This document shows positions 5,773-22,784 of a stretch of DNA of 23,497 nt, piece after piece. Within the stretch, counting starts at the first letter, position 1, and each line of letters begins with the position of its first letter. The notes below the pieces were generated by a model. The model was not told where the DNA came from. It was given only the letters and a program-made list of their open reading frames with translations, and did no database searches. The stretch lies in the IMG/VR virus record IMGVR_UViG_3300021356_000169, positions 1 through 23,497 of that record. One strand, written 5' to 3'. The DNA is from a virus. Both the position numbers and the translations under genes were made by a program.

Positions 5773-6464
5773 AGTTGTTTAATCATGTGGGACTAGATCC
5801 TATTGAGATGTCTGCTGAGATGGTGGATGGTAAGCGTGTCTATCTAACACCAACAGGAGATAAGTTTCCATCTGTCACCACAGTGATTAGTAACAACAAA
5901 GAAAAGATGGCGGGCATTGCTAGATGGCGTGCCCGTGTTGGCGAAGACAAAGCGAACAACATCTCTAAAAGATCTACCAATAGAGGAACAAAGTATCACT
6001 CCATTGTCGAAGATTACTTCAATAATAATCTCGACCTGAAGAAGTACAGTAAGTTTCCGCTTCCCGTTCTAATGTTCCAGCATTCTAGGGATATTTTAGA
6101 CCGCATAAATAATATTTACTTACAGGAAGCGGCGCTCTACTCTAAACATTTAGAGTTAGCAGGGCGTGTCGATTGTATCGCTGAGTATGACGGAGTGCTG
6201 TCTATAATTGATTTTAAGACTGCCGTCGAACCCAAGCGTGAAAAATATCTTTACGACTACTTCGTTCAGGAAACTGCATACGCATGTATGCTCCAAGAAA
6301 ATTACGGGTTGAGTGTTAAGCAACTCGTAACAATCGTTGCTTGTGAAAACGGAGAAACTCAGGTTAAGGTGCTTCCACCTAAGAAAGAATATTTCATGAA
6401 ACTAATGAGTTACATCGCGGAGTATCAAGAACGGTATGGAGAAAAAACAATTATTAGAGGATAG
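5769..6464 (+). CDS. PD-(D/E)XK exonuclease (RecB/MGME1-like)
   Basis: The 231-aa protein begins with an ATGA overlap to phoH. The nuclease core is visible: His77 in GTKYHSIVEDY, Asp135 in AGRVDCIAEYDG, Asp148 and Lys150 in the IIDFKTA motif and Gln167/Tyr171 in QETAY (the QxxxY element typical of RecB-type exonucleases). It is expected to degrade single- or double-stranded DNA ends in recombination, repair or host DNA turnover. Metal binding would use D135 and D148. The family and motif order are clear, but the substrate and T4 counterpart are not. Confidence 0.88.
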   Translation: MKLFNHVGLDPIEMSAEMVDGKRVYLTPTGDKFPSVTTVISNNKEKMAGIARWRARVGEDKANNISKRSTNRGTKYHSIVEDYFNNNLDLKKYSKFPLPVLMFQHSRDILDRINNIYLQEAALYSKHLELAGRVDCIAEYDGVLSIIDFKTAVEPKREKYLYDYFVQETAYACMLQENYGLSVKQLVTIVACENGETQVKVLPPKKEYFMKLMSYIAEYQERYGEKTIIRG

Positions 6465-6468
6465 ATTT

Positions 6469-6690
6469 ATGACCGCTGCGAAATTCTCGCAGGAAGTGGA
6501 GAAGATTGCATTGCACAATCCAGACATGAATTATATTGATTCGGTTATCCACTATTGCGAGGTGAATGAAATTGAAATAGATAGTGTATCAAAGTTGATC
6601 AGCAAACCTCTGAAGGAAAAACTCCGTCATGAGGCACAGCAACTCAACTTCATGAAAAAAACAAGTCGAGCTAAGTTAATGCTAGTATGA
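6469..6690 (+). CDS. gp33-like late-promoter transcription accessory protein (73 aa)
   Basis: The start at ATG 6469, preceded by AGAGGA, gives MTAAKFSQEVEKIAL and 73 aa; an upstream ATG at 6436 lies within the previous gene. The YIDSVIHYCEVNEIEIDS and SKPLKEKLRHEAQQLNFMKK segments match, as I recall them, the short gp33-type late-transcription co-activators of T4-like marine phages, with C-terminal FMKKTSRAKLMLV. gp33 bridges RNA polymerase and the sliding clamp at late promoters together with gp55. The gene order gp33-(59)-32 in T4 supports this call. T4 gp33 is longer (112 aa). I cannot verify the similarity by search. Confidence 0.6.
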   Translation: MTAAKFSQEVEKIALHNPDMNYIDSVIHYCEVNEIEIDSVSKLISKPLKEKLRHEAQQLNFMKKTSRAKLMLV

Positions 6691-7028
6691 GCTTCTTTCA
6701 ATCCGAATTAGTCCGTGGTGACATCCAAGAGATGATGGAACTACAGCAGTTCTGTTTCAGATCTGCTATGAATTTTGTCATCCTGGATGATGCAAGAAAA
6801 CTAGAATACTTTGAGAAACTACTAGAACTAATTGATAAACAGAAAACTTTTTACTTCCGTATTAAGTTAAGTGACGATCCTGAGGCGGTGTCTGTGCTAG
6901 AGACCATGAAGCAGGGTATTATTATGCTTGGTGCTACACCAGGCACCACCATCGAACAGATGTTTGATGAACTGACCGAGCGAGTCCAGATGATGAAGGA
7001 CAAACTCGAAAGTGGCACACAGGATTGA
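6687..7028 (+). CDS. DUF1825-like protein (113 aa) in the gp59 position
   Basis: This gene is coupled to the upstream gene by ATGA (6687). The 113-aa protein starts MSFFQSELVRGDIQEMMELQ and has LELIDKQKTFYFRIKLSDDPEA and the MFDELTERVQMMKDKLES C-terminal helix. This pattern resembles the DUF1825 family of cyanobacteria and their phages. It occupies the position between gp33 and gp32 where T4 carries the helicase loader gp59 (217 aa). It is about half that length and I see no gp59 resemblance, so any functional link is speculative. A strong promoter overlaps its stop. Confidence 0.7.
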   Translation: MSFFQSELVRGDIQEMMELQQFCFRSAMNFVILDDARKLEYFEKLLELIDKQKTFYFRIKLSDDPEAVSVLETMKQGIIMLGATPGTTIEQMFDELTERVQMMKDKLESGTQD

Positions 7029-7053
7029 CGCCTGACCTGCCACCTGTTATACT
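7025..7053 (+). promoter_or_regulatory. Sigma-70-type promoter for gp32
   Basis: TTGACG (7025-7030) and TATACT (7048-7053) are separated by 17 bp. The -35 overlaps the upstream stop codon. The expected start is near 7060, giving an 80-nt gp32 leader. Confidence 0.75.
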
Positions 7054-7059
7054 AACTTC

Positions 7060-7142
7060 GTTGGGCAGATGAGTCAGGGAGACTTGACTGTACGTAAGAC
7101 CCAACATCCAAACCAAATCCAAACTAATCCGAGGTAATCTAA
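7060..7142 (+). promoter_or_regulatory. Candidate gp32 autogenous translational operator (structured leader plus A-rich tail)
   Basis: GTTGGG (7060-7065) can pair with CCCAAC (7100-7105), enclosing AGTCA (7072-7076) paired with TGACT (7085-7089). Downstream, 7103-7142 is A/C-rich and structure-poor, with GAGG (7131-7134) before the ATG at 7143. In T4, gp32 represses its own mRNA by cooperative binding from a structured element along an unstructured A-rich leader; the layout here is analogous. This is inferred. Confidence 0.5.
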
Positions 7143-8066
7143 ATGTCATTCGCAGATCTTAAGCGTAAATCCCAGAACAATTTCCAGTACCTGCAGAAGG
7201 AACTTGAGAAATCATCCAGCGGCAAGAACGTTGATGAGCGTTTCTGGAAACCAGAGGTTGACGCTTCTGGCAACGGGTATGCAGTTATCCGTTTCCTCCC
7301 CGCACCTGAAGGTGAGACCATCCCCTGGGCAAAGGTGTATTCCCATGCCTTCCAAGGTCCTGGTGGTTGGTACATCGAGAACTCCCTGACCACTCTCAAC
7401 GAGAAGGATCCCGTTGGTGAAGTCAATCGCCGTCTCTGGAACAGCGGTAGTGATGAAGACAAAGAGACTGCTCGTAAGCAGAAGCGTAAGCTGCAATACT
7501 ACAGCAACATCTATGTCGTGAAGGATCCTAAGCACCCTGAGAACGAGGGCAAGGTGTTCCTCTACAAGTATGGCAAGAAGATCCATGACAAGATCCTCGC
7601 TGCCATGCAACCAGAGTTTCAGGATGAGCAACCTGTGAATGTCTTTGACCTTTGGGAAGGTGCTAACTTCAAGCTGAAGATCAAGAAGGTTGCAGGTTAC
7701 TGGAACTATGATTCTTCTGAGTTTGATTCTGTCTCTGCTCTCAGTGCAGACGATGATGAACTGGAAGCAACCTGGAAGACTGAGCACTCCCTTGAGGCAT
7801 TCACTGCCAAGGATCAGTTCAAGTCCTACGAGGATCTTGAGCGTCGTCTGAACATGGTGCTTGGCATTGCACAACGTGCTGCTGCTCCCACTGTTGATGA
7901 TGAAGAGTATGAACCTGTCGCTGCTACTGGTGGATTCAACGATGCTGACATCACGCCTAAGTCATCGTTCCGTCAGCAGATGAGTGCTCCCTCTCCCGTC
8001 AAGGAAGAGGCAGTTGTCGATGATGACGATGCCCTGTCTTACTTCGCTCGCCTTGCTGAAGAGTGA
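7143..8066 (+). CDS. 32: ssDNA-binding protein gp32
   Basis: The 307-aa protein matches T4 gp32 in order. It has an N-terminal basic cooperativity stretch (DLKRKSQNN, like the T4 KRKS region), the core block NGYAVIRFLPAP and WYIENSLTT, the VVKDPKHPENEGKVFLYKYGKKIHDKI segment and the WEGANFKLKIKKVAGYWNYD OB-fold region. An acidic C-terminus (VVDDDDALSYFARLAEE) is the usual protein-interaction tail. It coats single-stranded DNA in replication, recombination and repair. Unlike T4 gp32, no cysteine is visible anywhere, so the Cys3-His zinc site is absent. Promoter, leader hairpins and post-stop stem (8072-8104) make it a probable monocistronic, self-regulated unit. Confidence 0.96.
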   Translation: MSFADLKRKSQNNFQYLQKELEKSSSGKNVDERFWKPEVDASGNGYAVIRFLPAPEGETIPWAKVYSHAFQGPGGWYIENSLTTLNEKDPVGEVNRRLWNSGSDEDKETARKQKRKLQYYSNIYVVKDPKHPENEGKVFLYKYGKKIHDKILAAMQPEFQDEQPVNVFDLWEGANFKLKIKKVAGYWNYDSSEFDSVSALSADDDELEATWKTEHSLEAFTAKDQFKSYEDLERRLNMVLGIAQRAAAPTVDDEEYEPVAATGGFNDADITPKSSFRQQMSAPSPVKEEAVVDDDDALSYFARLAEE

Positions 8067-8462: not shown

Positions 8463-8492
8463 AAAAAAAATTCGGGCAAATTTTTGCCCGAA
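8463..8492 (-). terminator. Rho-independent terminator of the minus-strand operon
   Basis: TTCGGGCAAA (8471-8480) pairs with TTTGCCCGAA (8483-8492). On the minus strand the stem is followed by eight Ts (the A run 8463-8470), so it terminates gp53-side transcripts; the plus-strand side has no T run. Confidence 0.85.
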
Positions 8493-8496
8493 AAAG

Positions 8497-9126
8497 TCAT
8501 CCAGTTGCCTTTAGTCTCTGGTTGATATAACTTCCAGATTTTTTATAAATGTTTTTCTTTCTGTAGTCATCAACAAACTGTCTGAAATATGCTGGTTTGA
8601 GTAGATAGATTTCTCTCTTCTTCTCATTCTCAGCAGAATAATAATCAGCAATGGTAACGGGACGACAAATCTCGTTACCATTTTTTATTACAACAGAACC
8701 ATCGATGTTTAGTTTGTGTGTGCTGTTGTAGAATGTCTCATCAACACGAGTGCCATCTGAGTATTGTCCTATCGCATAAGTTTCGTAGTGTCTTATGGTT
8801 CCATAGGGATCATCATACTCGCTCTCTAGAACTTTAGACAACGCATAGTTTGATAGTGGCCAATCATATTGTGCATTAATCATGTTGTTTGTTAGGAGAA
8901 TGACCCAATCATAAAACTGATTGCCATATACTTTCTTTGCTAGACTATCTGGTCTCTCATTGTCAATGATAGTATATTTTCTAAAGATGACTGAGTATGA
9001 GAACACATCATCATTGATTTTGTACCTGCGGAAGAAATTCTTCGCAGTTACATAGTCCGACTCTGAGAACGGATAACTAATTGGTTTCTCATCGTATGAG
9101 ATGTTGGGAACTAGTGAAAAAAACAT
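8497..9126 (-). CDS. 53: Baseplate wedge subunit gp53
   Basis: The 209-aa product (T4 gp53 196 aa) starts MFFSLVPNISYDEKP and carries the family block RPDSLAKKVYGNQFYDWVILLTNN near residues 58-81. It joins the baseplate wedge and is needed for wedges to form the ring around the hub. Its ATG overlaps the gp48 stop (TAATG), the operon is gp4, the 229-aa gene, gp48, gp53, and the terminator lies a few bases beyond its stop. Assignment rests on recalled family pattern plus context. Confidence 0.88.
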   Translation of the reverse strand: MFFSLVPNISYDEKPISYPFSESDYVTAKNFFRRYKINDDVFSYSVIFRKYTIIDNERPDSLAKKVYGNQFYDWVILLTNNMINAQYDWPLSNYALSKVLESEYDDPYGTIRHYETYAIGQYSDGTRVDETFYNSTHKLNIDGSVVIKNGNEICRPVTIADYYSAENEKKREIYLLKPAYFRQFVDDYRKKNIYKKSGSYINQRLKATG

Positions 9127-22469: not shown

Positions 22470-22784
22470 ATGCTATCTACTCAATACAGACTACGACTCG
22501 AATTTATCTGTAAGAAGATCGCAAACAAGGAGGAAGTAAAATTAGACGACATGATCTGGGTGGAGAAACTCGCTAAGAGACACACCACCGCACGCGACTG
22601 GTTGAATAAAGCACGCCGTCAGGCGGCGCAGGACATCCAGGAAGGCACAATGGACGATTTTATGAATAAGATGGGTCTGGGCGATCCAGACCCCTCTAAC
22701 TACCGCACAGGGTTCGATGGTGCGGATGAAATCATTGACTGGTTCAAACAAGATAAACCTGATGATTGGAGGCAACGTGACTGA
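22470..22784 (+). CDS. Hypothetical protein (104 aa)
   Basis: The gene begins one base after the previous stop. The 104-aa product MLSTQYRLRLEFICKKIANK has an N-terminal basic helix, KLAKRHTTARDWLNKARRQAAQD (about residues 33-55) and an acidic, Asp/Trp-rich C-terminal half (WFKQDKPDDWRQRD). It is predicted soluble. The next gene starts by GTG within its last codons (22777), so the two are coupled. No known domain is recognised. Confidence 0.7.
   Translation: MLSTQYRLRLEFICKKIANKEEVKLDDMIWVEKLAKRHTTARDWLNKARRQAAQDIQEGTMDDFMNKMGLGDPDPSNYRTGFDGADEIIDWFKQDKPDDWRQRD

Follow-up and report, generated by a model that had tools for sequence, protein, structure and literature searches.

An apparently undescribed, portable structured RNA at the predicted 5′ end of gene 32 leaders in T4-like cyanophages

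Does the leader of a cyanophage gene 32 homologue work as the operator of T4 gene 32 does? In T4, the gene 32 protein (gp32) first binds a pseudoknot and from there coats a strip of UUAAA repeats, and the extension of this self-control to other T4-related phages has been named as needing study (PMC535899, PMC3014915). The window analyzed here is a 23,497-nt stretch of DNA from a T4-like cyanophage, and its gp32 gene carries a folded element in the 5′ leader, the position that the operator holds in T4. A sequence-only reading had proposed that this leader is self-regulatory and resembles the T4 operator in architecture. The features of the locus are as follows.

6436–6690, + strand: upstream gene, gp33-like late-transcription coactivator (Pfam Trans_coact PF16805, E 3e-28; phrog_254)
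6687–7028, + strand: upstream DUF1825 gene (Pfam DUF1825, E 2e-11), its stop codon overlapping the −35
7025–7030, + strand: −35 hexamer TTGACG, kept in relatives
7048–7053, + strand: −10 hexamer TATACT after a 17-nt spacer, preceded by TG; 6-nt gap to P1 in 83 of 83 leaders
7060, + strand: predicted +1 (G), the first base of the element and first G of GTTGGG, from a spacing to the −10 that is invariant in 83 leaders
7060–7105, + strand: structured RNA element E, 46 nt, from covariation and fold
7060–7065, + strand: P1 5′ strand GTTGGG, partner 7100–7105, with compensatory forms in gp32 leaders
7066–7067, + strand: 5′ side of the internal loop, CA (CU in two relatives)
7068, + strand: first P2 pair, G7068–C7093, invariant
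7072–7089, + strand: P2 apical arm AGTCAGG-GAGA-CTTGACT, with a GNRA-type tip in relatives
7094–7099, + strand: 3′ side of the internal loop, GTAAGA, invariant
7100–7105, + strand: P1 3′ strand CCCAAC, from covariation
7106–7142, + strand: tail, A/C-rich, G-poor and unstructured, with AATCC repeats
7131–7134, + strand: SD-like GAGG within the tail
7143–8066, + strand: gp32 single-stranded DNA-binding protein, 307 aa (Pfam PF08804, E 2.6e-47; phrog_224, E 2e-128)

The earlier reading had placed a promoter, TTGACG-17-TATACT, such that transcription would start at about 7060 on the first base of the hairpin, and these coordinates are correct. Promoter statistics are uninformative from the window sequence itself, where a 2.6-kb stretch holds two −35/−10 sites compared with 3.9 expected by chance; only comparison with relatives is informative. 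Sites scoring at least 9/12 occur in 263 of 287 gp32 leaders and in 30 of 287 shuffled ones, and they lie upstream of the element in 83 of 87 element-bearing leaders (control windows, 14 of 283). In all 83 of these promoter-bearing leaders exactly 6 nt separate the −10 from P1, which is therefore predicted to open at +1; the +1 at 7060 is predicted from the same spacing. Of the remaining four element leaders, three stand behind a manA-like sequence and the fourth has only a weak −35. At loci L201, L237, L240, and L265, a manA-like 3′ sequence, identified by eye rather than via Rfam, is followed by the element with no promoter between. No terminator-like site, meaning a G+C stem and then a T run, was found at the element on the + strand; unlike an intrinsic terminator, the element runs into the A/C-rich tail.

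The comparative data argue that the hairpin is a real structured RNA whose fold is kept by selection. Folded by itself, the element reaches −17.9 kcal/mol (z = −3.8; matched by 0 of 200 shuffles), which bears out the nested GTTGGG/CCCAAC and inner AGTCA/TGACT pairings that had been read from the letters; in the inner arm, AGTCAGG (7072–7078) pairs with CTTGACT (7083–7089) around a GAGA tetraloop (7079–7082). The fold of the whole 91-nt leader is insignificant (z = −1.2; matched by 27 of 200 shuffles), since the tail contributes no structure. Covariation among gp32 leaders of other cyanophages, the check that the sequence-only reading had suggested, is strong. Across 30 distinct long-arm copies, standard pairs fill 97.9% of pair cells, both partners vary in 8 of 15 pairs, and there are 52 double-change cells compared with 14.3 in shuffled alignments, a count reached by 0 of 500 shuffles; sliding the partner strand by 1 to 3 columns leaves only 0 to 8. 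The outer P1 pair is seen as GC, AU, and UA, and the next as UA, CG, AU, and GC. Phage S-H38 has a P1 of GCTGGG/CCCAGC, compensatory to that of the window, other gp32 leaders have the compensatory forms AATGGG/CCCATT and ACTGGG/CCCAGT, and in phage Sf-CH3 and locus L028 P1 is shortened jointly by one base per side. In the apical arm, G-U pairs are abundant and A-C cells nearly absent, which argues that the RNA of the + strand is selected rather than a DNA palindrome.

Within these helices the core is all or nothing in gp32 leaders. With up to two core mismatches tolerated in the search, GUAAGA is intact in every genuine gp32-leader copy, and CU replaces CA in one class only among these copies, as well as in phage Sf-FR1. 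The tip is more variable, with the GNRA-type forms GAGA, GCGA, GAAA, and GUGA and a pentaloop, GAUGA; other arm types include a shortened one (..CAGCACAGTAYTNAGCGTAAGA..) and a fourth. The two natural CU variants and the lack of tandem G-A pairs speak against reading CA/GUAAGA as a kink-turn, and a likeness to the hammerhead, seen in allele A (CAGAUGAG), was set aside since it is missing from other alleles. No Rfam family matches the window element at the gathering score, the curated manA, wcaG, glnA, and PhotoRC models included, and a permissive search (E up to 10) returned only an irrelevant minus-strand match in the window; in related copies of the element, Rfam gave nothing relevant. The literature searched, which lay mostly outside subscription journals, gave no description of the element, and Rfam itself misses some published motifs. 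The element is thus apparently an undescribed portable 5′-leader RNA.

To describe its distribution, we gathered gp32 relatives from four query clades and by pattern, giving 292 distinct leaders. The element is present in about one-third of them, and ≈180 of the 292 have no recognized structured element, proportions that are rough and not population estimates because the set is partly pattern-selected. That so many leaders go without it indicates that the element is dispensable. Among isolates, S-8S53, S-H38, ACG-2014e, and Syn1 have it, and S-PM2 and Syn9 are without it. A strict pattern, GTTGGGCAG..CGTAAGACCCAAC, matched 114 viral contigs; the 84 distinct copies read stand directly before gp32 genes, of several clades, wherever the downstream ORF is readable, and a scan of 84,980 prokaryote genomes with this pattern found no copy. 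In gp32 leaders, the element is 34 to 48 nt long and lies 24 to 48 nt from the ATG, with similar distances before other genes. Whole-record searches typically find one copy per phage, which does not indicate a regulon within a single phage; phage Bellamy has a short second pattern match besides its element copy. BLAST matches in P-HM2 and MED4-213 are partial and fall in coding sequence, P-HM2 has no copy of the core, and many other exact-core matches have no P1 and are chance or unrelated.

The folded part of the leader changes between close relatives. The position can be held by this element, a short GTGA..TCAC-type hairpin, the manA RNA (RF01745, confirmed at five loci), another long element, or nothing, and many other leaders have unrelated hairpins, such as GTGAT..ATCAC, at this same +1 site. 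When gp32 proteins are compared pairwise, the two leaders fall into different classes in 28 of 143 pairs with ≥95% identity and in 129 of 301 with 90 to 95% identity; the element is therefore exchanged as a cassette. Loci L267 and L212 are identical through the promoter and element but differ in tail and gp32, so that recombination broke the sequence where the element ends on its 3′ side. Other modules were seen in passing. The gp32 leaders of L009 and L020 hold a different long structured insert (ACCACGACTTAGAAGCGTGGACATGATGTCGGGTAAAACC..) between promoter and tail, with no Rfam match at the gathering score; in those of L021, L023, L404, L405, L417, and L430, a hairpin (CCTAAGATGCAACTC..GAGTCGGGCAGATGG), conserved among several loci, follows a manA-type RNA.

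The tail is far more constant. The earlier description of a structure-poor, A/C-rich stretch up to the ATG holds across 262 relatives, in which the tail averages 82% A+C and 3 to 4% G with or without the element, and the last 34 nt have a median fold of about −0.3 to −0.4 kcal/mol. Of 263 tails, 225 contain two or more AATMY repeats (18 after shuffling) and 142 contain CCAAATMC (1 after shuffling). When the 167 ORFs of phage S-8S53 are ranked by these repeats, the gp32 leader comes first and is the most A/C-rich among the top rows; in S-PM2, the gp32 tail is no outlier. The promoter and A/C-rich tail are the nearly universal part of the leader and the hairpin is the exchangeable part.

Copies of the element also stand before genes other than gp32. 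The same core, within other covarying P1 stems, lies upstream of a family of small proteins, typically near 45 aa and spanning about 30 to 56 aa (MTRSTALGMLKVGNTGDEILQILDVIVADI..), for example at 72920–72971 for gp102 of phage Bellamy (YP_009791259). This family (..ALGMLKVGNTGDEILQILDVIVADI..; L144, L159, L189, L551–L560) matches nothing in Pfam and a PHROG only marginally. The element further precedes at least six types of homing endonuclease (GIY-YIG-like, HNH-like, and AP2-like); Pfam supports NUMOD3 in three and AP2 and HNH weakly, and one type without a match was named by eye. In the endonuclease copies, the apical loop complements the region just before the ATG over 9 to 13 Watson-Crick nucleotides, runs as long as these arising in 0 to 8 of 2000 shuffles, and a late promoter, TATAAATA-like, (T)ATAAATA, lies between the element and the ribosome-binding site (RBS) region. 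These copies are not at the +1 of a promoter, so being a 5′ end is not required of all copies. Over gp32, small-ORF, and endonuclease copies together, the core helices covary, with 28 double-change cells compared with 8.9, in an alignment that was assembled by hand and omits the apical part. Wherever a genome with such an endonuclease or small-ORF copy also offered a readable gp32 leader, as in six phages or fragments, that leader is without the element. At L085, L101, L112, L134, L145, and L149, in other phages, the core recurs in a GGGGCAG..CGTAAGACCCC hairpin located between the gene for a MoxR-like ATPase and its neighbor; L101 and its kin were not counted, being partly terminator-like, sometimes with a T run after.

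How might such a leader work? We lean, by a small degree, toward a gp32 leader that combines a sigma-70 promoter, a portable folded element at the first transcribed base, and an A/C strip of ≈37 nt with the RBS, together giving post-transcriptional control. The fold, its fixed promoter register, its exchange between phages, and its reuse before other genes come from comparison; the control function is what we infer. The element would offer a recognized, structured 5′ module about 24 to 48 nt upstream of the start codon, and a factor bound there would govern how readily ribosomes reach the single-stranded strip and might affect the lifetime of the mRNA as well. In homing-endonuclease mRNAs, the scaffold probably blocks the RBS itself, because its loop complements the RBS, and this pairing would form a predicted pseudoknot. 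The gp32 copies have a GNRA-type turn or short loop at the tip, no anti-RBS, and Watson-Crick runs of only 3 to 6 nt between arm and tail; with such an arm, control would have to act through a bound factor or through stability. In a broader reading, which we think probable, the element represents a new phage RNA family, a scaffold of ≈34 to 55 nt (P1, the CA/GUAAGA loop, and a variable P2) that would serve as a portable translational-control part with its arm fitted to each gene class, tipped by a GNRA-type turn in front of gp32 and small-protein genes and by an anti-RBS pseudoknot loop in front of endonuclease genes.

The reading closest to the original proposal is a T4-type autogenous operator, in which gp32 would nucleate on the hairpin, spread cooperatively over the A/C strip, and so shut down further gp32 synthesis once the free protein is in surplus. 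We regard this as possible but doubtful. The order of parts is that of T4 and RB69, and the distances are similar to those in these phages, which need a 5′ fold and a less structured repeat strip of >40 nt (PMC535899, PMC3014915), and the almost universal, repeat-rich tail, foremost in S-8S53, fits as well. The hairpin, however, is swapped or missing before near-identical gp32s and precedes other genes in phages whose gp32 leader is without it, there is neither a pseudoknot nor a set of UUAAA repeats, and the S-PM2 tail is no repeat outlier. The self-regulatory proposal is partly supported: the architecture is real and conserved, and the case for a gp32-specific hairpin is weaker; of the likeness to T4, the order of parts is kept, and no T4-style pseudoknot is visible. 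The folded element is probably not a recognition site for gp32 only. As T4 gp32 binds its UUAAA strip, the cyanophage protein may bind the A/C-rich strip, and by this analogy T4-like self-repression through the tail is plausible. In our reading, autoregulation of cyanophage gp32, if it exists, would rest on the A/C strip, with the element as an interchangeable module.

Stem-loops at the 5′ end stabilize bacterial mRNAs, and a hairpin at +1 could simply shield the gp32 mRNA from 5′-end-dependent decay of the RNase E or RppH type, in which case any hairpin would suffice. The exact +1 placement in 83 of 83 leaders and the unrelated hairpins at the same site favor such a cap, yet a pure cap has no need of an invariant CA/GUAAGA loop or a kept GNRA-type tip, many leaders are hairpin-free, and the element is reused inside read-through transcripts before homing endonucleases; we consider this explanation rather unlikely. 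That an internal loop of invariant sequence sits inside covarying helices would suit a riboswitch-like sensor, whose core would bind a small molecule or ion and gate translation, as would the varied downstream genes and the same-site exchange with manA RNA, a riboswitch candidate (PMC2864571). With a small core, no visible expression platform in the gp32 form, no Rfam similarity, and genes without a metabolic theme, a sensor of this kind seems a clearly unlikely explanation. Least credible, and in our judgment highly improbable, is an element acting as DNA with no RNA function, whether transcript-primed origin, operator palindrome, or mobile repeat. Movement between leaders as a cassette and the one breakpoint at its 3′ end would agree with that idea, but the G-U and A-C pattern is expected only for + strand RNA, and the register to +1 is fixed.

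Among known systems, the T4 operator is the nearest analogue in layout. The T4 and RB69 operators share with the cyanophage leader a folded RNA followed by an unstructured repeat strip that covers the gene 32 RBS, at similar distances, and in RB49 the T4-type folded part is absent, a parallel to the element-less cyanophage leaders (PMC535899, PMC3014915). Whereas T4 has a pseudoknot and UUAAA repeats, the cyanophage leader has a nested hairpin with a GNRA-type tip and an invariant internal loop, followed by A/C-rich repeats of the AATCC type, and its folded element is not confined to gp32. The endonuclease copies recall I-TevI, segB, and Aeh1 mobE, whose RBS-sequestering hairpins follow an early-off, late-on logic, in both RBS complementarity and an intervening late promoter (PMC2988022). 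They differ in carrying the anti-RBS in the apical loop of a conserved scaffold, where its pairing would create a pseudoknot; an anti-RBS is absent from the gp32 copy of the window. As a review describes it, seg43(25) of Aeromonas phage 25 has a very stable hairpin just upstream of the RBS that does not sequester it, and the gp32 copy may be likened to this case (PMC2988022). The manA (RF01745) and wcaG RNAs are likewise cyanophage 5′-leader RNAs of unproven function (PMC2864571, PMC9964418), and manA shares the gp32 leader position in some relatives; neither matches the element in sequence or structure, and manA is ≈190 nt long compared with 34 to 48 nt for the element in gp32 leaders.

This comparison describes the gp32 leader across several hundred cyanophage loci, separates its universal part from its exchangeable part, and names isolates in which both are testable. 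The element looks like a portable control part and not a private self-control switch of gp32. The comparison also suggests an RNA module of phages that different viral genes take up and fit with new tips to suit their own purposes.

Some neighboring features deserve mention. Element-less gp32 leaders such as those of L298, L306, L308, and L300 carry an inverted repeat (GCTACTATAATCCAGTAGC, GCCATCATAATACGGTGGC) that overlaps the −10, adjoins a late-promoter-like TAAATA, and is possibly an operator. In the window, the junction after the gene at 22470–22784 is highly variable among relatives: the homologue in L133 and L114 is directly followed by the element and an AP2/HNH-type homing endonuclease, and the window has neither there. 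A strong terminator-like hairpin (TTCGGGCAAAAATTTGCCCGAA) with a T run lies on the minus strand at 8471–8492, between the gp32 region and a convergent gene at 8497–9126.
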